From NCBI GenBank assembly GCA_019510485.1, contig JAEKKI010000136.1:1-41844 (forward strand): a DNA stretch of 41,844 nucleotides. Direction: 5' to 3'. Positions 17,482 to 41,844 of the stretch are shown piece after piece. The first letter of the stretch is position 1; each line of letters opens with the position of its first letter. Under the pieces are notes generated by a model that worked only from the letters and a program-made list of their open reading frames with translations, was not told where the DNA came from and did not search any database. This DNA is from Catenulisporales bacterium (GTDB lineage: Bacteria > Actinomycetota > Actinomycetes > Streptomycetales > Catenulisporaceae). A program made the translations under genes and the position numbers.

Positions 17482-17485
17482 GCTG

Positions 17486-29561: not shown

Positions 29562-30413
29562 ATGAGTACTTGGAGCCAGACCGCCGAAGGGATCTTTACC
29601 CGCCGGTTCGATCCGGTGAACGTCACGGTGACCGCTGTGCTCGGCGGCGAGGGAGTCCTCGTGGTCGACACGCGGTGCAGTGTGGAGGAGGGGCACGAGC
29701 TGCGCGAGGAGCTGGCGCGGCTGACGCCGTTGCCGGTGCGCTGGGTGGTGAACACGCACACGCACTTCGATCACATGTGGGGCAACGCCGCGTTCGACAT
29801 CCCGTTCTCGGTGCCGCCGGCCGAGTTCTGGGGCCACGAGAACATGCCGGAGTTCGATCCGGAGGATCCGGAGTTCCTGGAGTTCCGCGAGTACGTCATC
29901 CGCGAGGGCGGTCCGGAGTGGGTGCCGAAGATGGACGCGCTGGTGGTCCGCGAGCCTGACCATCGAGTACGTACTTCGCACGTCCTCGACCTCGGCGGCC
30001 GCGTCGCCGAGCTGCGTTACTGCGGTCGCGGTCATACCGACAACGATCTGGTGGTCTGGCTGCCGGATGCCGATGTGCTGCTGGGCGGCGATCTGGTCGA
30101 GCAGTCGGGTCCGGTCGCCTTCGGCAGGGATTCGTTCCCGCTGGACTGGCCGGGGACGCTGGCCGCTCTGGCATCGCTGACCGCCGAGGACACCACGTAC
30201 GTGCCCGGCCATGGCGATCCTGCGGGCCGTGGATTCCTGGTGGAGACTCAGGAGTTCGTCACGGCGGTGGCCGAGCAGATCAGAGCCCTGTACGCCGAGG
30301 GTGTTCCGGTCGATCGGGCGCTGGAGGCCGGCAACTGGCCGTTGGAGGACGCCTCGCACTTCGCCGACGCGGTGAAGCGCGGTTATACGCAGCTGTCGGG
30401 CGAGCTTTTGTAG
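29562..30413 (+). CDS. MBL-fold metallo-hydrolase
   Basis: Metallo-beta-lactamase-superfamily hydrolase (283 aa), probably with two metal ions. The ligands are in HTHFDHMWGN (HxHxDH), GHTDNDLVVW, LLGGDLVEQSG and VPGHGDP. The sequence is of the general quinoprotein relay/lactonase-like type; the substrate is unknown. ATG 29562 begins MSTWSQTAEGIFTRRF; GGGGA is only one base upstream, so the start site may be used without a typical ribosome site. It is followed ten bases later by the DUF3097 gene, so the two are co-transcribed, divergent from hrcA. Confidence 0.9.
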   Translation: MSTWSQTAEGIFTRRFDPVNVTVTAVLGGEGVLVVDTRCSVEEGHELREELARLTPLPVRWVVNTHTHFDHMWGNAAFDIPFSVPPAEFWGHENMPEFDPEDPEFLEFREYVIREGGPEWVPKMDALVVREPDHRVRTSHVLDLGGRVAELRYCGRGHTDNDLVVWLPDADVLLGGDLVEQSGPVAFGRDSFPLDWPGTLAALASLTAEDTTYVPGHGDPAGRGFLVETQEFVTAVAEQIRALYAEGVPVDRALEAGNWPLEDASHFADAVKRGYTQLSGELL

Positions 30414-30423
30414 GGTGGCGGGC

Positions 30424-31269
30424 GTGCCAGAGCCCGACATCCACAGCAAGCAGTACTCCCCTGAACTCTCCCCCACGCCTCGCCGATCCGCCTCGACGGA
30501 GGTGGAAGCAGTACGCGATCTGGTCGTCGAAGACGTCGAGACAGGGTTCTGCGGCGCGGTGATCTGGGTCGAGAAGACTCCCGGCGGCCCGACCGTGACG
30601 CTGGAGGACCGCTTCGGCAAGCACCGCGTCTTCCCGCTCGGGCCCGGCTTCTGGATCGACGGCCGCCCGGTGACGCTGGTCGCCCCGAAGGCGTCGCAGG
30701 GAGCTGTGAAGCCCCGGCGCACGGCGTCGGGCTCGATCGCGGTCCCCTCGGCCCGGGCCCGGGTGGCGCGCGCCGGCCGGGTCTATGTCGAGGGCCGGCA
30801 CGACGCCGAGCTGGTCGAGAAGGTCTGGGGCGACGACCTGCGCGTCGAGGGCGTGGTGGTCGAGTACCTGGAGGGCGTGGACGACCTGGCGGCGATCGTC
30901 GCCGACTTCCGTCCCGGCCCGGACGCGCGCCTGGGCGTGCTGGTGGACCACCTGGTGCCGGGCACGAAGGAGGCGCGCATCGTCGAGGAGGCGCGGCGCT
31001 CCCCGTTCGCCGAGCACCTGCTGGTGGTCGGGCATCCGTATGTGGACGTGTGGCAGGCGGTCAAGCCGTCGGCGCTGGGCATCGCCGCGTGGCCCGAGGT
31101 GCCGCGCGGCCGGCCGTGGAAGGAAGGAGTCTGCGAAGCCCTCGGCTGGCCGGTGAACACGCCGGCGGCGTGGAAGCGGATCCTGCGGTCGGTGCGCGAC
31201 TACCGGGATCTGGAGCCGGTGCTGCTGGGGCGGGTCGAGGAGCTGATCGACTTCGTGACCGGGGTGTAG
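30424..31269 (+). CDS. DUF3097 family protein with a TOPRIM-like motif
   Basis: A conserved actinobacterial protein (281 aa) of unknown function. The middle part begins RVYVEGRHDAELVEKVWGDDL, which resembles the first strand and Glu of a TOPRIM fold. LGVLVDHLVPGTKE stands where TOPRIM proteins have the DxD pair, here Asp followed by His. Next come HPYVDVWQAVKPSALGIAAWPEVPRG and a final helix. A nuclease or RNA-maturase-like role is conceivable but not supported by a complete catalytic triad. GTG 30424 is preceded by AGGG eight bases upstream; a GTG at 30415 is the alternative. Confidence 0.8.
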   Translation: MPEPDIHSKQYSPELSPTPRRSASTEVEAVRDLVVEDVETGFCGAVIWVEKTPGGPTVTLEDRFGKHRVFPLGPGFWIDGRPVTLVAPKASQGAVKPRRTASGSIAVPSARARVARAGRVYVEGRHDAELVEKVWGDDLRVEGVVVEYLEGVDDLAAIVADFRPGPDARLGVLVDHLVPGTKEARIVEEARRSPFAEHLLVVGHPYVDVWQAVKPSALGIAAWPEVPRGRPWKEGVCEALGWPVNTPAAWKRILRSVRDYRDLEPVLLGRVEELIDFVTGV

Positions 31270-31272
31270 GGG

Positions 31273-31956
31273 TCAGTGGGGCGCGGCGTGTTCCCCGGCG
31301 ACCCAGCCCGAAAGCGCCGCGACGTCGTGCTCGCAGTGCGGGGAGTCCCGGAAGGTCAGCTCGATGCCCGGCGGGGTGACCAGTAGGTAAGAGGTCTTGG
31401 ATGCGCACGGCGGGTTGCCGTCGGAGCCGTAGGCCAGGACCGCGGCGGCCGAGGCGCCGGGTGCCAGGGTCATCGCCTGCGCGGTGGGATCGGGATTGAC
31501 CGTGAAAGGCAGCTGCTGGTGGTCCTGGTCCAGGACCGACACCGCCGGATGGGCCGTGAGGGTGCAGGCGGCCGTGCTGTGGTTGGTGACCACGATGTCC
31601 CAGAACGTTGAGCCGGCCGCGGCTCCCGGCAGCTCGTCCAGCCGGGCGGTGGCTCCGGGAGCCGCACAGACCGGCGCGGAGCCTGGGGCCGTCGAGCTGC
31701 TCGTCACCGATGCCTGTGCCGATGTCGATGCTGATGTCGGTGCCGTGCCGGAACTCGGCGAGGAAGCCGCGGAACCGGTCGTAGTCGTACCCGCGACCGT
31801 CGAAGAACTCGAACTCGCCGGTCCGACAGACTTCGCCGACCCGCTCGACCCGCTCGACCCGCCGCATCCCGCGGCGATCACTCCCACCGCGACCGCCGTC
31901 AGCACCCAGGCCGCCCGGCCTGTCGCCACGTTCCCGTCGTACCGTTCCGGCCACAT
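31273..31956 (-). CDS. DUF4232 lipoprotein
   Basis: A 227-residue secreted lipoprotein. The signal peptide ends in the lipobox VIAAGCGG, so Cys31 is lipidated. A Ser/Thr/Ala-rich linker of about 60 residues follows (possibly glycosylated or a wall spacer). The C-terminal beta-rich DUF4232 domain comes next, with four Cys (VCAAPG, ACTLTA, PPCASK, SPHCEHD) probably in two disulfides. GGGAGGG five bases before the ATG supports the start. It is the last gene behind hemW and the MOSC gene on the same strand. Function unknown. Confidence 0.85.
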   Translation of the reverse strand: MWPERYDGNVATGRAAWVLTAVAVGVIAAGCGGSSGSSGSAKSVGPASSSSSTVAGTTTTGSAASSPSSGTAPTSASTSAQASVTSSSTAPGSAPVCAAPGATARLDELPGAAAGSTFWDIVVTNHSTAACTLTAHPAVSVLDQDHQQLPFTVNPDPTAQAMTLAPGASAAAVLAYGSDGNPPCASKTSYLLVTPPGIELTFRDSPHCEHDVAALSGWVAGEHAAPH

Positions 31957-31974
31957 GGTGACCCTCCCAGTCGG

Positions 31975-32637
31975 TTACCCGATCTTCGCGAGCCGCTCTT
32001 GGGCCCACTCCTTCAAAGGCGGCGCCAGCTCCTCGACCCCCAGCAGCGCCTTCGCCTGATCGCGGTCGCGATGGTAGATCCGCGACGCGTCCTGAACGGT
32101 GAATCCGTGCGCCGGACGCGACAGCACCTCCAGCGTGTCCCCCGCGCCGACGTCGCCCTCCGTAAGCACTCGCAGATACGCGCCGGGCCGCAGCGCCTTC
32201 TCGAAGCGGCGCGTCATCGTCCGGTCCCCGGCCCGGACGCCGAGCTTCCAGCAGGGGAGCCGGGGCTGCGCGACCTCGAACTCGACCGTGCCGATGCGCC
32301 AGCGCTCGCCGACCACCGCCTGGCTGACGGCGTAGCCGGCGATGGTGAGGTTCTCACCGACGAATCCGTCCTCGACGGGGCGGCCCAGTTCGGCGGCCCA
32401 GAAGTCCAGGTCCTCGCGCGCGTAGGCGTAGACGGCCTTGTGCACACCCGCGTGGCTCACCTGATCGGCCTGCCGGTCGCCGGCGACGTGGTGGTCGGCG
32501 ATCCGCACCCGTCCGGGGACCGGCTCCTTGAAGATGGCGGTCTGCCGGATCTCGCCGTTCAACTCCACGTCGCGGGGCTGTCCGACGTTCACGCTGACCA
32601 GGCGGCCGGCGGCGGGATTCGTGGATGCGGTCGTCAT
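31975..32637 (-). CDS. MOSC domain protein (YiiM-like)
   Basis: A 220-residue molybdenum-cofactor sulfurase C-terminal domain protein. The conserved Cys expected to bind Mo cofactor or sulfur lies in RLPCWKLG, and the family motifs DHHVAGDRQADQVSHAGVHKAVYAYAREDLDFW and FVGENLTIAGY are intact. Standalone YiiM proteins act in reduction of N-hydroxylated bases in E. coli; a similar role is a family-level inference. GAGAGG lies nine bases before the ATG. It sits 12 bases after hemW and is likely co-transcribed. Confidence 0.9.
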   Translation of the reverse strand: MTTASTNPAAGRLVSVNVGQPRDVELNGEIRQTAIFKEPVPGRVRIADHHVAGDRQADQVSHAGVHKAVYAYAREDLDFWAAELGRPVEDGFVGENLTIAGYAVSQAVVGERWRIGTVEFEVAQPRLPCWKLGVRAGDRTMTRRFEKALRPGAYLRVLTEGDVGAGDTLEVLSRPAHGFTVQDASRIYHRDRDQAKALLGVEELAPPLKEWAQERLAKIG

Positions 32638-32649
32638 GGGCCCATCCTC

Positions 32650-33876
32650 TCAGTCGACCAGATCGCGGACAACCGCGTCTGCCAGCAGTCTTCCCTTCAG
32701 AGTAAGGACCGCCGACCCCGCGGCCAATGACCGCGGATCCAGCAGGCCCTCGGCGGCGGCGCGGATCGCGGCTTCGCGTCCGGCCGGCTTCAGCAGGCTG
32801 ATTTCGCACCCTGATTCCAGCCGCAGCTCCAGCAGGATCCGCTCCACGCGGCGGTCCTCGGCGTCCAGCACCTCGCGGGCGTGCGCGGGCGAGCGCCCGG
32901 CGGCCAGGCGCTGGGAGTAGGCGCTCGGGTGTTTGACGTTCCACCAGCGGGTGCCGCCGACATGGCTGTGCGCGCCGGGGCCGACGCCCCACCAGTTCGC
33001 GCCGGTCCAGTAGAGCAGGTTGTGACGGGAGCGGCCTTCGGGCGTCGCGGCCCAGTTCGACACCTCGTACCAGGCGAAGCCGGCGGCGGCCAGCGCTTGG
33101 TCGGCGATCAGGTAGCGGTCGGCGTGCACGTCGTCGTCGATCATCGGCAGCTCGCCGCGTTTGACCCGGGCCGCCAGGCGCGTGCCGTCCTCGACGATGA
33201 GCGAGTACGCCGAGAGGTGATCGGGCCCGGCGCCGATCGCGGCGTCCAGGGAGGCGCGCCAGTCGTCGTCGCTCTCTCCCGGCGTGCCGTAGATGAGGTC
33301 CAGGTTCACGTGCTCGAACCCGGCGGCGCGCGCCTCGCGCACGCAGGCTTCGGGCCGTCCCGGCGTGTGGCGGCGGTCCAGGACCCGCAGGACGTGCTCG
33401 CGGGCGCTCTGCATGCCGAACGAGATGCGGGTGAACCCGCCGGCGCGCAGCTCGGCCAGGTAGGCCGGGTCCACGGACTCGGGGTTGGCCTCGGTGGTGA
33501 CTTCGGCGTCCGGCGCCAGGCCGAACTCCTCGCGGACCGCGCCGAGCAGCGCGACCAGGTCGGCGGCCGGCAACATGGTCGGGGTGCCGCCGCCGAAGAA
33601 CACGGTCCGCACCGGCAGGTCGGCGGCGCCGAGGACCTTGCGGGCCAGGCGGATCTCCTCGATCGCGGTGCCGGCGTAGGTGGCTTGGGAGGCGCCGCCG
33701 CCGAGCTCGGAGGCGGTGTAGGTGTTGAAGTCGCAGTAGCCGCAGCGGCTCGCGCAGTAGGGGACGTGGATGTAGAACGCGAGCGGCGTGCCGGTCAGCT
33801 CGGGCTCGGCGAGGGCCTGCGGCGGCAGCGATCCGTCGGCGGGGACGGGTTCACCGTCGGGGAGGACACCTGGCAT
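32650..33876 (-). CDS. hemW: HemW-type radical SAM protein
   Basis: A radical SAM protein (408 aa) related to coproporphyrinogen III oxidase HemN but acting as a heme chaperone in characterised cases. The iron-sulfur motif is YCASRCGYCDF (CxxxCxxC). FFGGGTPTML, TTEANPES, RISFGMQS and NLDLIYGTPGES follow. The fourth Cys typical of true HemN after the motif is Phe-Asn here, as in HemW. The N-terminal 30 residues (LPDGEPVPADGSLP) are typical of actinobacterial members. In related genomes hemW adjoins lepA; here a 6-kb accessory segment separates them. Confidence 0.93.
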   Translation of the reverse strand: MPGVLPDGEPVPADGSLPPQALAEPELTGTPLAFYIHVPYCASRCGYCDFNTYTASELGGGASQATYAGTAIEEIRLARKVLGAADLPVRTVFFGGGTPTMLPAADLVALLGAVREEFGLAPDAEVTTEANPESVDPAYLAELRAGGFTRISFGMQSAREHVLRVLDRRHTPGRPEACVREARAAGFEHVNLDLIYGTPGESDDDWRASLDAAIGAGPDHLSAYSLIVEDGTRLAARVKRGELPMIDDDVHADRYLIADQALAAAGFAWYEVSNWAATPEGRSRHNLLYWTGANWWGVGPGAHSHVGGTRWWNVKHPSAYSQRLAAGRSPAHAREVLDAEDRRVERILLELRLESGCEISLLKPAGREAAIRAAAEGLLDPRSLAAGSAVLTLKGRLLADAVVRDLVD

Positions 33877-33947
33877 GCGTTCATTGTCTCTTATGTTCGA
33901 TGCCGCTCATGTTCGACGCCGCTCATGTTCAGACAGCGACCGGAGCC

Positions 33948-34061
33948 CCGGCGGCCTCGGCCTACGTGGACCAGCGTGAACGCCGCCATGACCAGCGCGG
34001 ACAGGACACCGAGCACCACGCTGACCTCGCCCGGCCCGCGCCGGTCGGCCAGGTGCCCGAC
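33948..34061 (-). pseudogene. MFS transporter relic
   Basis: A short frame on the minus strand reads VGHLADRRGPGEVSVVLGVLSALVMAAFTLV, an MFS motif A (GxLADRxG) followed by one hydrophobic helix, then runs into unrelated sequence. No start, no other helices and no partner frame complete it. It looks like a remnant of a transporter gene at one edge of the segment inserted between hemW and lepA. The rest of the 346-base stretch 33877-34222 holds only the promoter-like and hairpin elements listed separately. Confidence 0.45.
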
Positions 34062-34142
34062 CGGGCAGCGGGATGTTCCCCAACCCCTTGTCGTCGCCGA
34101 GACTACCGTTATAGGCGTTGGCCGCCAAAGGGTATTACGCGG

Positions 34143-34148
34143 TAGACT
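34143..34148 (+). promoter_or_regulatory. -10 box before the GNAT gene
   Basis: TAGACT fits the actinobacterial -10 consensus; TTGGCC lies 19 bases upstream as a weak -35. A transcript would start at about 34155, immediately ahead of a terminator hairpin. Confidence 0.45.
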
Positions 34149-34159
34149 GCTCGCTGACA

Positions 34160-34188
34160 AAGCCTTCCGGTGCGCCGGGAGGCTTTTT
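34160..34188 (+). terminator. Rho-independent terminator or attenuator in the GNAT leader
   Basis: AAGCCTTCCGG and CCGGGAGGCTT form an 11-bp stem (one G-T pair) with a four-base loop and run into five T residues. It lies between the TAGACT box and the GNAT start at 34223, so most transcripts from that promoter would stop here unless something relieves it. Confidence 0.7.
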
Positions 34189-34222
34189 CGCGTTCTCTCG
34201 CCGATGTTCTTGGAGGATCCCC

Positions 34223-34717
34223 ATGACCGACCTGTTGATGCGCGCCGCCGATGGAGCCGATGCCGCGGACCGCGCACTGCTGGAGCGGTTGTGGTTGCTG
34301 TTCCGGCATGACATGACGGAGTTCACCGGCGCTCTGCCGAATCCGGACGGCACGTTTCGCAGCGAGTGGCTGGTCTCGGCGCTGGAGGACGAGGACTGGG
34401 CGGCGTATCTGGCGTTCGCGGACGATCGGCCGCTGGGTTTCGCTTTCGTGCGCGCGTTGGAGCAGCCGATGCGGGTGGTGAACAGCTTCTTCATCGTGCG
34501 TGGCGCTCGGCGGAGTGGTTACGGGATGCAGTTCGCGCAGTATGTGCTGACAGCGCATCCCGGACCGTGGGAGATCGCGTTCCAGGATGCGAATGCCAAG
34601 GGCGCGCGATTCTGGCGGCGGCTGGCGCAACAGGTCGCCCCGGACGCGTGGCACGAGGAGGAGCGTCCGGCCGCGCGGCCCGAGATGCCGCCGAACGTGT
34701 GGGTCGTTATTCCGTAG
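34223..34717 (+). CDS. GNAT-family N-acetyltransferase
   Basis: A 164-residue acetyltransferase-like protein. GGAGG six bases before ATG 34223 supports the start. The fold is visible as WAAYLAFADDRPLGFAFVRAL, NSFFIVRGARRSGYGMQFAQYVL (acetyl-CoA loop RGARRSGYG) and WEIAFQDANAKGARFWRRLAQQ. Substrate unknown. It is 33 bases before the RNA ligase gene and in the same direction, but that gene seems to have its own -10 box. Confidence 0.85.
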   Translation: MTDLLMRAADGADAADRALLERLWLLFRHDMTEFTGALPNPDGTFRSEWLVSALEDEDWAAYLAFADDRPLGFAFVRALEQPMRVVNSFFIVRGARRSGYGMQFAQYVLTAHPGPWEIAFQDANAKGARFWRRLAQQVAPDAWHEEERPAARPEMPPNVWVVIP

Positions 34718-34738
34718 AGCGCACGGTCCGCTGATCCC

Positions 34739-34744
34739 TACAGT
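34739..34744 (+). promoter_or_regulatory. -10 box of the RNA-repair cassette
   Basis: TACAGT ends six bases before the ATG at 34751. The distance suggests a leaderless transcript for the ligase-kinase gene; no ribosome site is present. Confidence 0.5.
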
Positions 34745-34750
34745 GGCGCC

Positions 34751-36544
34751 ATGCGCGTCCACTATCCCCGTACACCCCATCTGCCCTGGTCGCCCGGCGC
34801 CACGGCGGACGACGTGCGCGCCGGGGATCTGGCGGGGCTCGTGGGGCGGCGCGTCGTGATCACCGAGAAGCTGGACGGAGAGAACACGACGCTGTATCGA
34901 GACGGGTTGCATGCGCGGTCGCTGGATTCGGCACACCATCCTTCACGGGCCTGGATCAAGGCGCTGCATGGCCGGGTCGCTGGGCGGATACCCGAGGGGT
35001 GGCGGATCTGCGGGGAGAACCTGTTCGCTCGGCATTCGATCGCTTATGACGATCTGGACGGGTACTTCTACGGGTTCTCGGTGTGGGACGGCGAGCGGTG
35101 TCTGGACTGGGACTCCACAGTGCGGTTCCTCAGGAGCATCGGGATACCGACGCCGCGTGTGTTGTTCCGTGGGACGTTCGACGGCGAGGAGCGGACGCTC
35201 GGCAAGGCTTTCCGGCTGGATCTGAATCGGCAGGAAGGCTATGTGGTGCGGGTCGAGGAGGGATTCGCCTTTGGCGAGTTCGGTTCGCGGGTCGCCAAGT
35301 GGGTTCGGCCGTCGCATGTGCAGACCGACACGCATTGGATGTTCGCTTCGGTCGTACCGAACGGGCTCGGGGCTACGGCACCGTTGTGGTCGGTGCGGAG
35401 TGGGGTCGACGTTGAGGCTGCTGAGTTGGCTGCCGCCGTCGGTCTCGATGCGAAGCCGGATGTCGCCATCCTCGCTGACGCCTACTCCCGGTTGGACGTC
35501 TCAGGTTCCTTCGGCGACGCACGGCTGGTCGGGGCGGTTGCCGCACTGGTTCACGATCGGCGGCGTGCGGATGTGATGGCCGGACTCGCGGCACCGCTGG
35601 GGACTGTGGCGACGGCGCGGCGGGTCGGGGATGTCGTCGGGCTCGCGCGGCGTCTTCATCAGGCTTTCGACGATGAGCAGCGGCGTGTCGGGCTGGCGCG
35701 GATGGCGTTCGGCACTGACTTTGCTGTGCTGCACGCCGTTGCGGCCGCCACGGCTCCGGATGCCGCTGCGGCCGAGCAGGTCGCGTGGTCGGCGTTGGTC
35801 GCCGAGGACGCCGGGTTGCTTCCGCGGTCGCCGCTGCCGGCATTGCGGGCTGCGTGCCGGGCGGCTTTCTCGGAATTGCCCGGTCGAGCAGCGGACCGAT
35901 GTTGGGGCGAGGCGCGGGAGTTGTTCGCGCAGGGGCGGATCGCCTCGGTGGCGGAAGCTGTGGCGGCGACGTGGCGTTGGCGCGATGGCGACTATCCTCG
36001 GCTGTTCCATCTGATCGGGGTTTCCGGTAGCGGTAAGAGCACGCTGGTCGATGCGATGGCTCGCGCGGCCGGTACCGAGGTCGTCAGTCTCGACGCGCTG
36101 CGATCGGCGCGCGGGTCGCGGGCTGATCAGTCGGCGAATCAAGAGGTGCTGCACGAGGCTTTGCACCGACTGGAGGTTCTCCTGGCGCGGGGGACGGATG
36201 TCGTCTGGGATGCGACGTCGCTGACGCGGCAGCAGCGGTCGTTGGTGGATCGTGTTGCTCAGCGTCGCAATGCGCTGATCGAGCACAGGGTGCTGCTTGT
36301 GTCGGCTTCGGAGCTGGCTGTGCGGAATCGCGAGCGCGAGCATCCGGTTCCGGACGACGTGCTGAGCGCACAGCTGCGGAGGTTCGATCCGCCGTATCCG
36401 GGTGAGGCGCACCGGGTCTCCTATAGTGCCTCGCGCGCCGATGATCTGGACTACGGCGATCTCGACTACGACGACGCCTTCAACTACCCGTTCAACTTCG
36501 ACCTCGGCTTCGCCACGCTGCCGTCGGCACTCCGGGAGGACTGA
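34751..36544 (+). CDS. RNA ligase fused to a polynucleotide kinase-like domain
   Basis: A 597-residue two-domain enzyme. Residues 1-210 are an ATP-dependent RNA ligase of the Rnl2/Rnl5-like group. Lys40 in EKLDGEN is the adenylation site; GENLFA follows; FYGF is motif III; EGYVVR is motif IV; AKWVR (182-186) is motif V. Residues 210-415 are helical and unrecognised. Residues 418-560 are a P-loop kinase: GVSGSGKST, SLDALR, VVWDATSLTRQQR and RNREREHPVPDDV, the layout of T4 Pnkp-type 5' kinases. It should phosphorylate 5'-OH ends and seal them to 3'-OH ends. No phosphatase domain is present here; end-healing could come from the next gene, six bases downstream. Confidence 0.87.
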   Translation: MRVHYPRTPHLPWSPGATADDVRAGDLAGLVGRRVVITEKLDGENTTLYRDGLHARSLDSAHHPSRAWIKALHGRVAGRIPEGWRICGENLFARHSIAYDDLDGYFYGFSVWDGERCLDWDSTVRFLRSIGIPTPRVLFRGTFDGEERTLGKAFRLDLNRQEGYVVRVEEGFAFGEFGSRVAKWVRPSHVQTDTHWMFASVVPNGLGATAPLWSVRSGVDVEAAELAAAVGLDAKPDVAILADAYSRLDVSGSFGDARLVGAVAALVHDRRRADVMAGLAAPLGTVATARRVGDVVGLARRLHQAFDDEQRRVGLARMAFGTDFAVLHAVAAATAPDAAAAEQVAWSALVAEDAGLLPRSPLPALRAACRAAFSELPGRAADRCWGEARELFAQGRIASVAEAVAATWRWRDGDYPRLFHLIGVSGSGKSTLVDAMARAAGTEVVSLDALRSARGSRADQSANQEVLHEALHRLEVLLARGTDVVWDATSLTRQQRSLVDRVAQRRNALIEHRVLLVSASELAVRNREREHPVPDDVLSAQLRRFDPPYPGEAHRVSYSASRADDLDYGDLDYDDAFNYPFNFDLGFATLPSALRED

Positions 36545-36550
36545 GTCGCG

Positions 36551-39253
36551 ATGCGTACCAGCCAGGAGATCTACCACCGGGTGCGGTGGGATGCGCGGTT
36601 CGACGCGTCGCGGTTCGTGCTCGGGGTGGAGCAGCGGGGGCGGGGGCCAAAGCGGGTGCCTTTGCCGTCGTTCGATCCGCAGGGGGAGATTCCGTGGCAT
36701 CGGGTGGTGTTCTTCGAGGCGGACGGCGAGGTGGTCTGGGATCGGGCGTCGGGGCTCGATGCGCTGGACGCGAGCGGGGCGGGGTTGGCGCGGCGGGAGC
36801 GGGTACTGCCGGCGCCGTTCTTCGAGGCTCGGACGCCACATGTTTTTGCGGACGGGCGATGGCGTCCGGTCACGGATTCAGGGTCGGGCGCGGGCGCTGT
36901 CTCGCAGATCAAGGTCCTGACGTGGAACACGCTGTGGGACCGGTATGACAGCGATCTGATCCAGACGGAGCGACGGCGGCCGATGCTGCTGGCGGCTCTA
37001 GCGGCGGCGGATGTGGACGTGATCGCGTTGCAGGAGGTCGAGCCGGCGCTGCTGAAGATGCTGCTGGCCGAGCCTTGGGTGCGCGAGGGGTGGACACTCG
37101 GCGGCGATCCGCGTTCGTCGGACGTCGCGGACAGCGGTTTGGTGCTGCTGAGCCGACTGCCGGTGGTCGAGGCCGGGTGGCATGCGCTGGCTCGGTTCAA
37201 GGCGGTCACGGCTCTCGTCGTGGAGACGGCCACTGGGCCGGTCGTGGTCGCGGACACGCATTTGAGCAGCGATCACTCGACCGATGGCGCGGGACTGCGA
37301 GTCGAGCAGCTCGGGCAACTCGCCGATGGATTGAGCGCGATCGATGCGCCCGTGCTGCTGGTCGGTGACTTCAACGAAGACAGTGACGCCCCGGCGACGC
37401 GGCTGGGGCTCACGGACGCGTGGACGCAGGTGCATGGCGCCGACGACCGGACTCCGACGTTCGATCCGACGGTGAATCCGCTGGCTGCCGTGTCGTCGCT
37501 GACCGGAGAGGCCAAGCGGCTGGATCGGGTGCTGCTGCGCGGGTGGCGGGCTTCCGCCGCGCGATTGGTCGGGGACGTGGCCGACAGCGAGGGCCTGTTC
37601 GCATCCGATCACTACGGGGTCGCTGTCGCTGCTTACGAGGATGCTTCGGTTACCGCTCCTGCTTCCGCTTCCGCTTCCGAGGTGCATCCGACGGCGCGTA
37701 CAGCCGTGGCCTGGATCCCCCCGGATGAGTTGTGGGACGACATCCAGGAGGTGCGTCGCCGCCTGGATCCGCAGATCCGTCGCTGGCCGCCGCATGTCAA
37801 CATCCTGTTCGGATTCGTTCCCGAATCAGAGTTCGACGCTGCTGCCCCCTCGATCAGCAAGGCAGCAGCTGCGATTCCTCCCTTCAAGGTGCGATTCGGC
37901 AAACTGCGTCAGTTCAGCCATCGCAGCGACTCGACACTGTGGCTGGATCCGGAGGGGGAGGGCTGGTCCGCGCTGCACGCGTCTTTGCTCGCGCGCTTTC
38001 CCGCCTGCCGCGATCGCGACGAGTTCGTTCCCCACCTGACCATCGGCAAGGTCGCGGATCCCGCACGGGCCGTCGTGACATTCGCTCCGATCGCGACGGC
38101 CGTCCGGGAACTCGCGCTGCTGTCGCGGCGTGGCGACGAGCCGATGCAGGTGCGCGCCGTCGTGACGCTCGGCACCGGACAAGTGCGCTGGCTCGACTCT
38201 GACGCCGCTGTTTCGGTGATGGGCCGGCCGACACTTGATCACGAGGCGACCGCCCTCGCCGACCGTGTCCGCACGGCGCTTCCCGAGGCGGGGATACACG
38301 TTGTCGGCTCGCGTCGTTTCGAGGCGGCCCTGCCGGGTGCTGATCTCGATCTCGTCGCGGCAGTACCCGGATCGCCCGATGTCGACGTGCTCCAGCAGCG
38401 AGTCACCTCGGCGGTCGGGCCGGCGTGTCGCGTGCGGCAACTCGTCGGCGCCCGGGTGCCCGGGCTGCGCATCGTGACGCCGACCCTCAGCGCCGATCTG
38501 GTCCTGGCTCCGGTGGGTGACGTGCCGGTGGCCGAGGCGATCGAACGACGCGGTGAGTTGGGCGACACCATCGCCGCCACGTTGTCCGCTGTCTCCGATG
38601 CCGAAGCGATCCGCGCATTGCGGCCGGGCCCGCACGTGCGTGTAGTGAAGGCGTGGGCCCACGCTCGCGGTCTCGACGCGGCTCCGCTCGGCGGCCTGCC
38701 GGGACTGGCATGGGCGCTGATGGCAGCACGCTGCCGGGACCTGACCGAGTTCTTCGAGACGTGGGCCGCCCACGACTGGCACGAGCCCATCTGCACCCCC
38801 ACCGCACCGGTGCGCGACCTCACCCTGCACCTCACCTCCGCAATGCGCGACCTAATCACCGAAGAGCTCTATAACGCCTGGGAAACGGCCACTGCCACCC
38901 GCGACCCACTCCCCGCCCTCCTGGCGCCCCCACCCCTACACCGCCGCCACCGCCGCTGGGCGGTACTCACCCTCACCGCCACCGGACCAGCACACCGCGA
39001 CACACTCGAAGGCCGCGTCCGAGGCCGCACCCGCGGCCTCCTGACCACCCTCCACGAAGCCGGCATCCCCGACACCCACGCCTGGCCCCGCCCGTTCCAC
39101 ACCACCGACACCGAACTCCGCTTCGCCATCGGCCTCGGCCGTACCCCACCGACCCACGACGCGCTGGACGCGCTCACGAAGCACTGGCTCAGGGGCCTGT
39201 CTGGAGTGAGCGTCACGCTCGCCGACAACGGCGAGGTTCCAACGCTGCGTTGA
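36551..39253 (+). CDS. MJ1316-EEP-2H-poly(A)polymerase fusion, RNA end processing
   Basis: A 900-residue fusion. Residues 1-75 are an MJ1316 (DUF504) domain (RVRWDARFD, EIPWHRVVFFEADGEVVWDR), proposed to recognise cyclic RNA ends. Residues 118-362 are an endonuclease/exonuclease/phosphatase domain with Asn126 (TWNTLWD), Glu162 (ALQEVE), His237 (DTHLSS), Asp273/Asn275 (GDFNED) and Asp353-His354 (SDHYG). Residues 385-548 are a 2H phosphoesterase (HVNI at 415, HLTI at 495) able to open 2',3'-cyclic phosphates. Residues 560-890 resemble eukaryotic-type poly(A) polymerases: GSRRFEAALPGADLDLV with Asp598/Asp600, a third Asp near 649, and VKAWAHARGLDAAPLGGLPGLAWALMAAR. GGGAGG lies 11 bases before the ATG. 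Catalytic residues look intact in all parts. Confidence 0.88.
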   Translation: MRTSQEIYHRVRWDARFDASRFVLGVEQRGRGPKRVPLPSFDPQGEIPWHRVVFFEADGEVVWDRASGLDALDASGAGLARRERVLPAPFFEARTPHVFADGRWRPVTDSGSGAGAVSQIKVLTWNTLWDRYDSDLIQTERRRPMLLAALAAADVDVIALQEVEPALLKMLLAEPWVREGWTLGGDPRSSDVADSGLVLLSRLPVVEAGWHALARFKAVTALVVETATGPVVVADTHLSSDHSTDGAGLRVEQLGQLADGLSAIDAPVLLVGDFNEDSDAPATRLGLTDAWTQVHGADDRTPTFDPTVNPLAAVSSLTGEAKRLDRVLLRGWRASAARLVGDVADSEGLFASDHYGVAVAAYEDASVTAPASASASEVHPTARTAVAWIPPDELWDDIQEVRRRLDPQIRRWPPHVNILFGFVPESEFDAAAPSISKAAAAIPPFKVRFGKLRQFSHRSDSTLWLDPEGEGWSALHASLLARFPACRDRDEFVPHLTIGKVADPARAVVTFAPIATAVRELALLSRRGDEPMQVRAVVTLGTGQVRWLDSDAAVSVMGRPTLDHEATALADRVRTALPEAGIHVVGSRRFEAALPGADLDLVAAVPGSPDVDVLQQRVTSAVGPACRVRQLVGARVPGLRIVTPTLSADLVLAPVGDVPVAEAIERRGELGDTIAATLSAVSDAEAIRALRPGPHVRVVKAWAHARGLDAAPLGGLPGLAWALMAARCRDLTEFFETWAAHDWHEPICTPTAPVRDLTLHLTSAMRDLITEELYNAWETATATRDPLPALLAPPPLHRRHRRWAVLTLTATGPAHRDTLEGRVRGRTRGLLTTLHEAGIPDTHAWPRPFHTTDTELRFAIGLGRTPPTHDALDALTKHWLRGLSGVSVTLADNGEVPTLR

Positions 39254-39255
39254 GG

Positions 39256-39417
39256 TCACCTGGCAGGTGGCGCCCCGCCATTTCGCCGACGCAGTAACCG
39301 CGCGCCACGAAAACCGGGCACCTGGCGGAGGTGTCCGGCAACAATGGTTTCGTAGTGCCGCTGGTAATCGTCCGCCGTCGAGGCGGGCGCCCAGCCCCGC
39401 CAGGTTCGCGCGATCAT
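39256..39417 (-). pseudogene. Truncated antibiotic-biosynthesis-monooxygenase-like gene
   Basis: From ATG 39417 the frame reads MIARTWRGWAPASTADDYQ and then HYETIVAGHLRQVPGFRGARLLRR, the N-terminal strand-helix of ABM-domain proteins, before ending after 53 residues in GGAPPAR. The family normally needs about 95-105 residues. AAGGGG precedes the ATG. The break lies two bases from the stop of the 900-residue gene, so the relic probably marks the edge of the inserted segment. The remaining sequence to 39515 shows nothing else. Confidence 0.5.
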
Positions 39418-39515
39418 CGGGGTTCCCTTCGCAGAGGAGAGCCAGTACTCGAGTTCGAGATTCTGCCCCTGACGGATGCGGAGCGGGGTCCCGCGCGGCC
39501 CCGCCGCCTCTACCC

Positions 39516-40223
39516 CTAAGCCGCCCCACCCACTGTCACCGTCCGCATCCCATCCCCCACAACCCGGCCGCCGATCTCCGCCCACCCCTCAGCCTTCGCC
39601 GGCCGCGCCAGGATCTCCGACCCCCACCCCTGCCGAATCACCAGCGGCCGCCGCAGCGCCTCCACTTGCCGCATCGCCGCCGAACCGGTGGCCTCGTCCT
39701 CGTCGATGCCCATCGCGGCGGCGAAGGCGCGGGCCCGGATGATGCCGCGCTGCTCGTCGACCCACGCCCAGAACTCGTGATGCTGGTACTCCGGCCCCGG
39801 CGGGACCGACAGCATGTCCACCTTCGCCTCGTCGGCGACCTGCACCAGGCTCCACTTCGGCGCGTCGGCGATCCGTCCGCGGATCCAGGTGCGCTCGTCC
39901 TCCGCCCAGGTCGTGACCTCCGCGGCCTTCGCCGGGCGCAGCGTGGACACGGTCCTGCCGGTCAGCCGGGACAGCAGCCAGGCCGTCCCGACGAGCGGGT
40001 GGCCGGCCAGCGGCAGTTCGGTGGCCGGGGTGAATATGCGCAGCGCGGCCTTGTCCACGTCGTCGACGAAGACCACCTCGCTGAACCGCAGGTCCGCGGC
40101 CAGCTTGGAGCCGGCGGCGGCGTCCAGGCCGGCGGCGTCCAGGACCACACCCAGGTTGTTGCCGAACAGCCCTTGCTCGTCCGTGAACACGCGGACTATG
40201 TGGACCTCAGCCATCTCGCTCAT
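39516..40223 (-). CDS. PhzF-like isomerase family protein
   Basis: A 235-residue PhzF-family protein (epimerase fold), shorter than the usual 260-300. The active-site Glu of the family is kept in RFSEVVFV, and LPLAGHPLVGTAWLL and DEDEATGSAA are the family signatures. The second half is reduced, with VDEQRGIIRARAFAAAMGI. The substrate is unknown; most such proteins are not phenazine enzymes. ATG 40223 or the third codon later (MAEVHIVRVF) may be used. It lies between lepA and the inserted segment, on the same strand as lepA, 38 bases after it. Confidence 0.82.
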   Translation of the reverse strand: MSEMAEVHIVRVFTDEQGLFGNNLGVVLDAAGLDAAAGSKLAADLRFSEVVFVDDVDKAALRIFTPATELPLAGHPLVGTAWLLSRLTGRTVSTLRPAKAAEVTTWAEDERTWIRGRIADAPKWSLVQVADEAKVDMLSVPPGPEYQHHEFWAWVDEQRGIIRARAFAAAMGIDEDEATGSAAMRQVEALRRPLVIRQGWGSEILARPAKAEGWAEIGGRVVGDGMRTVTVGGAA

Positions 40224-40261
40224 GGGGCCAGGCTACTGCCTGATCGCCCCGCCGCACGGGT

Positions 40262-41844
40262 TCACTTCTTAGTGGCTTTATCCCCGGTCTCGGAGGTCAG
40301 GGCGGCGATGAAGGCGTCCTGCGGCACTTCCACCCGGCCGACCATCTTCATCCGCTTCTTTCCTTCCTTCTGCTTCTCCAGCAGCTTGCGCTTACGCGAG
40401 ATGTCGCCGCCGTAACATTTGGCGAGCACGTCCTTGCGCATCGCCCGAACGGTCTCCCGGGCGATCACCCGCGAGCCGATCGCGGCCTGGATCGGCACCT
40501 CGAACTGCTGCCGGGGGATCAGCTCGCGCAGGCGTTCGGCCATCTTCACGCCGTAGGCGTAGGCCTTGTCCTTGTGCACGATCGCCGAGAAGGCGTCGAC
40601 GGTCTCGCCGTGCAGCAGGATGTCCACCTTCACCAGCTCCGCCTGCTGCTCGCCGGTGGTCTCGTAGTCCAGTGAGGCGTAGCCGCGGGTCTTGGACTTC
40701 AGCGAGTCGAAGAAGTCGAAGACGATCTCGGCCAGCGGCAGCGTGTAGCGGATCTCGACCCGGTCCTCGGACAGGTAGTCCATCCCGAGCATGATCCCGC
40801 GCCGGCTCTGGCACAGCTCCATCACGGCGCCGACGAAGTCGTTCGGGGTCAGGATCGTGGCACGCACCACCGGCTCGTGGATCGCCGTCACCTTGCCGCC
40901 GGGCATCTCCGAGGGGTTGGTGACGATGTGCTCGCTGCCGTCCTCCATCTGCACCCGGTACACCACCGACGGCGCGGTGGCGATCAGGTCCAGGTTGAAC
41001 TCGCGGTCCAGCCGCTCCCGGATGATCTCCAGGTGCAGCAGCCCCAGGAAGCCGACCCGGAAGCCGAAGCCCAGCGCCGCCGACGTCTCCGGCTCGTAGA
41101 CCAGCGCCGCGTCGTTGAGCTGGAGCTTGTCCAGGGCCTCGCGCAGCTCCGGGTAGTCCGAGCCGTCGATCGGGTAGATGCCGGAGAACACCATCGGCTT
41201 GGGTTCCTTGTATCCGCCCAGGGACTGGACCGCGCCCTTGTTCTGGGTGGTGACGGTGTCGCCGACCTTGGACTGCCGCACGTCCTTCACACCGGTGATC
41301 AGGTAGCCCACCTCGCCGGCGGCCAGCCCCTGCGAGGGCTTGGGCTCCGGGGAGATGACGCCGATCTCCAGCAGCTCGTGGGTGGCGCCGGTGGACATCA
41401 TCTGGATGCGCTCGCGCTTGTTCAGATGGCCGTCGACCACCCGGACGTAGGTGACCACGCCGCGGTAGGAGTCGTAGACCGAGTCGAAGATCATGGCGCG
41501 CGCCGGGCCGCCGGGGTCGCCGGCCGGCGCCGGGACGCGGCGCACGACCTCGTTGAGCACGTCCGGCACGCCGAGCCCGGTCTTGGCCGAGACCCGCAGC
41601 ACCTCGTCCGGGTCGCAGCCGATCAGCCGGGCCATCTCCTCGGCGTACTTCTCCGGCTGCGCCGCCGGCAGGTCGATCTTGTTCAGCACCGGGATGATCT
41701 GCAGCTCGTTCTCCATGGCCAGGTACAGGTTGGCCAGGGTCTGCGCCTCGATGCCCTGAGCGGCGTCGACCAGCAGGAGCGTGCCCTCGCACGCCGCCAG
41801 GGAGCGGGAAACCTCGTAGGTGAAGTCCACGTGCCCGGGGGTGT
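40262..41844 (-). CDS. lepA: Elongation factor 4 (LepA), 5' end outside the window
   Basis: Ribosome-associated translation GTPase that promotes back-translocation or initiation quality control. The frame is open to the window edge, and the partial G3 motif TPGHVDF is read at 41827-41842; the P-loop lies beyond. G4 is NKID, and the later EF4 parts are complete: [63 protein letters not shown] and the EF4-specific C-terminal domain ([29 protein letters not shown]). About 527 of some 600 residues are present. Confidence 0.96.

Follow-up and report, generated by a model that had tools for sequence, protein, structure and literature searches.

A conserved actinobacterial gene pair predicted to repair RNA, with a DRB0100-type ligase joined to an HD-Pnk whose HD site appears broken

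We describe a gene pair from a Catenulisporales bacterium, located on contig JAEKKI010000136.1 (a 41,844-nt stretch, here called the window, of an assembly that totals 5.5 Mb and is 77% complete). To the following reading of the pair we give a probability of roughly 0.6: the two products would form a two-polypeptide machine that heals, extends and seals broken RNA, in which protein 1 comes from the fusion of a ligase like DRB0100 of Deinococcus radiodurans to an HD-Pnk (an HD phosphatase domain followed by a P-loop polynucleotide kinase) and protein 2 takes charge of the 3' end. Judged from the predicted domains and their conservation, the pair is real and conserved and belongs to a general kind of RNA-repair system that is already known; bacterial systems of this kind were reportedly described by Burroughs and Aravind in 2016, in work that PMC6514570 and PMC7824862 cite. 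The first-pass annotation of this DNA had placed two genes six bases apart and had read six modules in them. Both open reading frames (ORFs) are confirmed on the plus strand (Table 1), with positions 36545-36550 lying between the stop of protein 1 and the start of protein 2. A Pfam search of both proteins, proposed there as a check, returned significant domain matches, with five of the six modules above the Pfam cut-offs and the sixth, a poly(A) polymerase (PAP), recognized by profile comparison.

The new part of this finding concerns the region between ligase and kinase in protein 1, residues 210-415, which had been left unassigned as a helical linker. We can assign it to the HD phosphatase region of HD-Pnk, with a metal site that is predicted to be broken. 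A linker profile built from 44 sequences aligned over its full length to the HD region from nine proteins of the HD-Pnk type (hhalign probability 98.1%, E 7.9e-13, 215 columns), and the adjoining kinase region of protein 1 matched HD-Pnk with E 2.2e-43. As controls we used the profile with its columns shuffled (30 shuffles) or reversed, and the profiles of the ligase, endonuclease/exonuclease/phosphatase (EEP), 2H and PAP domains, none of which exceeded 0.4%; when the halves of the linker were crossed with those of the HD region, no match was obtained. Pfam gave no HD match from the single protein 1 sequence, and the homology rests on profile comparison together with gene order.

In order to follow the HD metal site, we aligned the HD-Pnk proteins jointly with cassette sequences. 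The latter come from a scan of genome contigs, one genome per species, which found 213 relatives of protein 2, and the best 80 of these were examined as loci. Leaving out four loci without a ligase, ten cut at a contig end and one more (L070), and adding the window, we obtained 66 rows. The single-ORF "fusion" of both genes at L070 is likely a frameshift and was dropped because the kinase end is out of frame; open frames of 1289-1586 aa were likewise excluded from the fusion count wherever a separate frame encodes the ligase. Several of the HD-Pnk rows were taken from the matched frame, some of them from upstream of the annotated start. All six metal ligands (H51, H81, D82, H107, H139 and D173 in DRB0098 numbering) are present in 9/9 HD-Pnk rows. 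Among the cassette rows, H51, H107 and D173 are found in 0/66. D82 is aligned in none of the 66 and missing in at least 58; an H-D pair starts at the H81 column in eight rows including that of the window, and at most these eight keep D82. No single row has more than two of the six ligands by alignment; counting the H-D pair raises this maximum to three. Because most metal ligands are missing in the 66 sequences, an active HD metal site is not expected in protein 1. Protein 1 has the HD-then-kinase layout of HD-Pnk and lacks its active metal-binding set, and we would therefore take it as a descendant of HD-Pnk that is not classed as an active one.

On three other Deinococcus plasmids the gene for a DRB0100-like ligase and the HD-Pnk gene overlap by 4 bases, and protein 1 is colinear with the Deinococcus ligase and HD-Pnk genes read as one; these overlapping genes would represent its unfused form. 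Since the linker aligns to the HD region, the ligands are lost and the kinase is kept, we read protein 1 as a fusion in which an RNA ligase of the Deinococcus type precedes an HD-Pnk whose HD site is broken. The HD-derived domain is probably a structural remnant, with its function replaced by protein 2. Neither the gene pair nor its broken HD domain was found described in our search of the open-licence literature, which is not proof of absence.

The two flanking domains of protein 1 are predicted to keep their active sites. The ligase domain matches PF09414 over residues 34-185 (E 9e-34, 117.5 bits against a cut-off of 27) and a PHROG RNA ligase with E 2e-59, and its residues K40, D42, G43, E44, E89, E162 and K183 are invariant across 44 sequences; by score and by its adenylated-lysine motifs it is assigned to the ATP-dependent RNA ligases. 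Its closest assayed relative is DRB0100 from plasmid MP1 of D. radiodurans (58% identity over residues 1-206), and its identity to the jumbo-phage ligases listed (20 of 32 records) is 42-52%. The kinase domain matches AAA_33 over residues 418-548 (E 7e-27). Among solved structures it finds 4jst (E 7e-11), deposited as Metallophosphoesterase and which we take to be the kinase domain of C. thermocellum Pnkp, and the polynucleotide kinase 1ltq (E 1.4e-5). Fifteen kinase positions were tested in the 66 rows (DRB0098 numbering): eleven are kept in all, among them K277, S278, D293, R296, D333, T335 and R342, and R375 is kept in 65, with variation at P272 (59/66), S273 (49/66) and S275 (64/66).

Protein 2 begins with an MJ1316 domain, the single PF04457 match in the 77%-complete assembly. 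The EEP domain that follows scores 62.5 bits against a Pfam cut-off of 24.5 and has the catalytic N, E, H, D-x-N, D and D-H of its family. We tabulated the catalytic residues of the EEP, 2H and PAP domains in 81 sequences. Ten of eleven EEP positions are present in 81/81 and the remaining one, S201, in 79/81; the nearest solved relatives are chains of TDP2 (E 2e-7) and then beta-hemolysin (E 5e-6). The 2H domain scores 111.5 bits with PF13563 and matches the BSU11850 structure 2d4g with E 8e-6, and its second motif is H-L-T/S in 81/81. For the last domain, PAP_central scores only 20.2 bits in the single sequence, below the Pfam cut-off of 27.1, and a profile of 24 sequences matches poly(A) polymerase gamma (PDB 4lt6, chain residues 99-430) with E 4e-34. 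The aspartates D598, D600 and D649 are kept in 81/81, 79/81 and 80/81, the exceptions being confined to two Streptomyces sequences from loci without a ligase. By profile and residues we assign this domain to the canonical (eukaryote-type) poly(A) polymerases.

Table 1. Predicted genes and domains of the pair, in window coordinates
Feature	Position	Strand	Evidence
Protein 1 (597 aa): RNA ligase - decayed HD domain - polynucleotide kinase	34751..36544	+	ORF; Pfam
RNA ligase (ATP-dependent adenylyltransferase) domain, residues 1-204	34751..35362	+	PF09414; K40-x-DGEN, E89, E162-G, K183
Former "helical linker", residues 205-415: putative HD phosphatase domain with broken metal site	35363..35995	+	hhalign; ligand counts
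5'-OH polynucleotide kinase domain, residues 416-560	35996..36430	+	AAA_33; G-x-S-G-S-G-K-S, D448, R451, D487-A-T, R525
Protein 2 (900 aa): MJ1316 - EEP - 2H - poly(A) polymerase	36551..39253	+	ORF; Pfam
MJ1316 domain, residues 1-65	36551..36745	+	PF04457 E 3e-19 (Pfam name: RNA cyclic group end recognition domain)
EEP domain, residues 123-354	36917..37612	+	PF03372 Exo_endo_phos E 6e-17
2H phosphoesterase domain, residues 390-529	37718..38137	+	PF13563 2_5_RNA_ligase2 E 5e-32; H415-V-N417, H495-L-T497
Poly(A) polymerase region, residues 560-900	38228..39250	+	Profile against 4lt6; GS 586-587, D598, D600, D649

The two genes stay together. Record titles of the best 80 protein 2 relatives name actinobacteria, and in the genome-contig scan the nearest named relatives are Catenulispora, with 61-73% identity in protein 2. 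In 76/80 of these loci protein 2 is immediately preceded by a ligase gene, which is cut at the contig end in 10 of them, and the commonest spacing (42/76) is a stop and start codon sharing one base. We also scanned 293 genomes of the order, taking an E-value below 1e-58 as a strong ligase match. Such a match occurs in 47 genomes, including all ten listed for the genus, and all 47 carry protein 2 or part of it. In 46/47 protein 2 starts within 400 bases downstream of the ligase on the same strand, and the survey of the pair across genomes that the first-pass annotation had suggested thus bears out the pairing. Among these 46, one ends at a contig edge (G213) and another, G241 (locus L123), shows visible decay of both genes: the ligase has an internal deletion and protein 2 a stop. 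The forty-seventh (G205) has ligase and protein 2 unlinked, both inside contigs. At E <= 0.001 the ligase query matches 89/293 genomes, and the 42 weak matches, which fall mostly in the kinase region (best E 3e-9), were not counted. MJ1316 matches were found in 68 genomes, by hand count the 47 ligase genomes, G402 and 20 with other, mostly short frames; one of the 68 (G301) is below the family cut-off. The protein of G402 (L122) is a truncated MJ1316-EEP form without a ligase.

The pair is conserved in more than one neighbourhood. The genes hemW and lepA are its neighbours in the window, where it sits between them, and in 4 of the 80 loci. In 18/80 it is near tuf and/or rpsJ, both of which were seen in six, and runs opposite to the ribosomal operons (L006, L011, L013, L016, L017, L021-L024, L030-L032, L034, L038, L042, L043, L045 and L056). 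Both kinds of surroundings are translation-gene sites.

We infer the steps of the proposed mechanism from the protein families and their context. A metal-independent RNase would leave ends with a 2',3'-cyclic phosphate and a 5'-OH. The MJ1316 domain would bind or position the 3' end that carries the cyclic phosphate, the 2H domain would open the ring as its family suggests, the EEP domain would clear the remaining phosphate or trim to a 3'-OH, and the PAP domain would add back lost nucleotides. The kinase of protein 1 would then make the 5'-phosphate and the ligase would adenylate and join the ends, as is known of their families, with the broken HD domain retained as a helical domain that probably serves a structural purpose. 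The first-pass annotation had already proposed healing of RNA ends, addition of nucleotides and sealing; domain content and pairing favour this general reading, and the 3'-end healing module would have to be reassigned because the linker appears to be an HD phosphatase domain whose metal site is broken. A more specific scenario, which we hold tentatively and somewhat below even odds, is module replacement: HD-Pnk would have lost its 3' phosphatase, the helical shell would have become a docking platform in contact with protein 2, and this protein with its eukaryote-type PAP would have taken over the 3' end, rebuilding nucleotides before sealing. The substrate may be tRNA or rRNA cut by toxins. 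Rfam gave no family above its gathering score in window positions 30000-41844, and the sole tRNA of the window is at 17485, so we found no linked RNA substrate. Published work agrees with several of these steps: in the accessible part of PMC6514570, MJ1316 is linked to RNA repair and said to recognise 2',3'-cyclic phosphate ends, and the accessible part of a jumbo-phage survey (PMC7824862) describes a similar division of labour in other repair systems, in which nucleotidyltransferases are predicted to put back missing bases ahead of ligation. The ligase, kinase, 2H domain, phosphatase-like enzyme and nucleotidyltransferase of the pair fit the repair syntax given there.

Compared to known systems, the pair is closest to the Deinococcus DRB0100-DRB0099-DRB0098 operon and its two-gene relatives, in the identity of the ligase and in the linker and kinase being colinear with HD-Pnk. 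It differs in that ligase and HD-Pnk form one polypeptide with the HD metal site broken, that the four-module protein 2 follows and that no PARG gene (DRB0099) lies in between. With the Pnkp-Rnl-Hen1 complex it shares a related kinase domain, and in that complex, according to the accessible part of PMC4411300, kinase, 3' healing and ligase act together. However, protein 1 scores 33.4 bits with TIGR04075 against a cut-off of 750, and Pfam finds no Hen1 domain in either protein. The tRNA ligase Trl1 of fungi and plants combines ligase, kinase and cyclic phosphodiesterase and belongs to a different ligase family; the logic of ligase, kinase and 2H-type cyclic phosphodiesterase is similar here, but two proteins divide it between them and bring EEP, MJ1316 and PAP domains in addition. 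Short MJ1316-2H proteins from actinobacteria, about 300 aa long (L117, L118 and L119), are 74-75% identical to protein 2 in MJ1316 and 49-53% in 2H, but they are without EEP or PAP, and 7 kb around them contain no ligase match. Similar short MJ1316 frames are carried by several streptomycetes without the cassette. Finally, BAY66805 (L082 6995-9970) on a conjugative plasmid of the cyanobacterium Calothrix brevissima NIES-22 has the same order MJ1316-EEP-2H-PAP, but within 16 kb there is no ligase-domain match and only one marginal 45-residue match to the kinase tail (E 0.001); a dynamin-family GTPase gene is nearby.

Natural variants allow us to weigh the proposed order of extension and sealing against RNA triage, in which protein 2 would clean 3' ends, its PAP domain would tail fragments for decay and protein 1 would seal what it can. 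Triage agrees with the match of the last domain to canonical poly(A) polymerases and with the general knowledge that poly(A) tails promote decay in bacteria. The four loci without a ligase beside protein 2 (Catellatospora L071 and L076, Streptomyces L035 and L065) speak to this point. Both Catellatospora genomes have, in keeping with the proposed machine, an unlinked pair of RNA ligase and HD-Pnk with intact HD residues, while a search of the two Streptomyces genomes, whose completeness is not stated, gave no match to protein 1. In both of the latter the D-x-D of PAP is D-x-N, and one also lacks the third aspartate; the other 79 sequences, the two Catellatospora loci included, show no departure at D598, D600 or D649. 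The loss is confined to the genomes in which the search gave no ligase. This suggests a tailing activity in the service of ligation and makes triage unlikely in our view, although the two Streptomyces are related and their losses count as one event at most. A second series of variants concerns the 2H domain, which is absent from protein 2 in four genomes found in one group of streptomycetes (G239, G315, G317 and G319). Three of these genomes (G239, G315 and G319) hold a separate MJ1316-2H gene, which counts in favour of the model; a second MJ1316 gene occurs in two (G222 and G435) of the other 43 cassette genomes.

Several observations weigh against the proposed healing, extending and sealing machine. 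DRB0100, according to the accessible part of PMC1997131, self-adenylates at K40 but sealed no DNA or RNA substrate tried, either alone or with its operon partners. The first-pass annotation had all key catalytic motifs intact; this needs one correction, at the first 2H motif, which is H-x-N in 79/81 and H-x-T in 2/81 where the family has H-x-T/S, and the Calothrix relative has H-x-N as well. TDP2 acts on 5' adducts, and the nearness of the EEP domain to it may leave room for a role at the 5' end. If the PAP domain worked ahead of the ligase, some restraint would be needed to keep it from adding wrong nucleotides. With respect to the HD assignment, each half of the linker alone is weak (E about 4e-5, probability 43%), H81 is kept in 55/66 and H139 in 47/66 cassette rows, and a different alignment could change the ligand count. 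Divergence of seven segments is correlated over the 66 sequences (r 0.64 to 0.83), which speaks for the model, but the value was obtained without control for the species tree. Among the genomes without 2H in protein 2, G317 has no other 2H match. The variant genomes are few and probably represent one event per clade, so the model is supported by them and not proved.

Part of these points would suit a general repair of nucleic acid broken by stress or radiation (RNA, perhaps DNA or hybrids) in place of an anti-toxin or anti-phage task. In the accessible parts of PMC1997131 and PMC11833690, irradiation strongly upregulates DRB0100, and DNA damage is followed by induction of its operon. The relation of EEP to TDP2 and the presence of the ligase in all ten genomes listed for the genus point the same way, as does the lack of a convincing match of the pair to the PADLOC defence models (protein 2 none; protein 1 two matches limited to the P-loop, the best being mad3 with E 2e-5 over 48 residues). 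However, MJ1316, 2H and poly(A) polymerase belong to families that deal with RNA ends, and the pair is patchy in the order (47/293), and we rank general repair slightly behind triage. A nucleotide-signal system, in which a PAP/OAS-like domain would make an oligonucleotide signal and 2H and EEP degrade it, is very improbable: some enzymes of the 2H and EEP families degrade oligoadenylates, and OAS is distantly related to PAP, but the profile follows a canonical poly(A) polymerase along 4lt6, and such a system has no role for a kinase and ligase whose pairing with protein 2 is near complete.

Some observations concern the surroundings of the pair. A 199-aa gene at 34118-34717 of the window, without Pfam match and acetyltransferase-like by eye, lies 33 bases upstream of the ligase and is present in 5/7 genus loci checked. 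Another contig of the same genome has a second RNA-repair locus (L151, 4141-8969) with a cluster of Tpt1, Hen1 and Pnkp, where Tpt1 would remove a leftover 2'-phosphate; RtcB was not found in the assembly at its 77% completeness. In 5/80 loci (L053, L063, L077, L078 and L081) a DRB0094-type RNA ligase is encoded on the opposite strand, 1.1-1.8 kb downstream of the pair, and DRB0094 is close to DRB0098-0100 on D. radiodurans MP1 as well. In Catellatospora an RtcB gene (L076 10168-11355) is found 1.4 kb downstream of the orphan protein 2. We gave these RtcB and DRB0094-type neighbours no weight as they are too clade-bound. Protein 2 had no match among phage records, and of nine pattern matches to it in viral contigs none was confirmed.

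In the reading that we prefer, of RNA healed, extended and sealed by two proteins, the pair offers a testable division of labour as to which protein heals which RNA end, and it bears on the role of a eukaryotic-type poly(A) polymerase in a bacterium. The ligase-less, 2H-less and unlinked natural variants provide a ready control series. Since the actinobacterial counterpart of DRB0100 appears fused to HD-derived and kinase domains, there is also reason to revisit DRB0100, for which no ligase activity was found.
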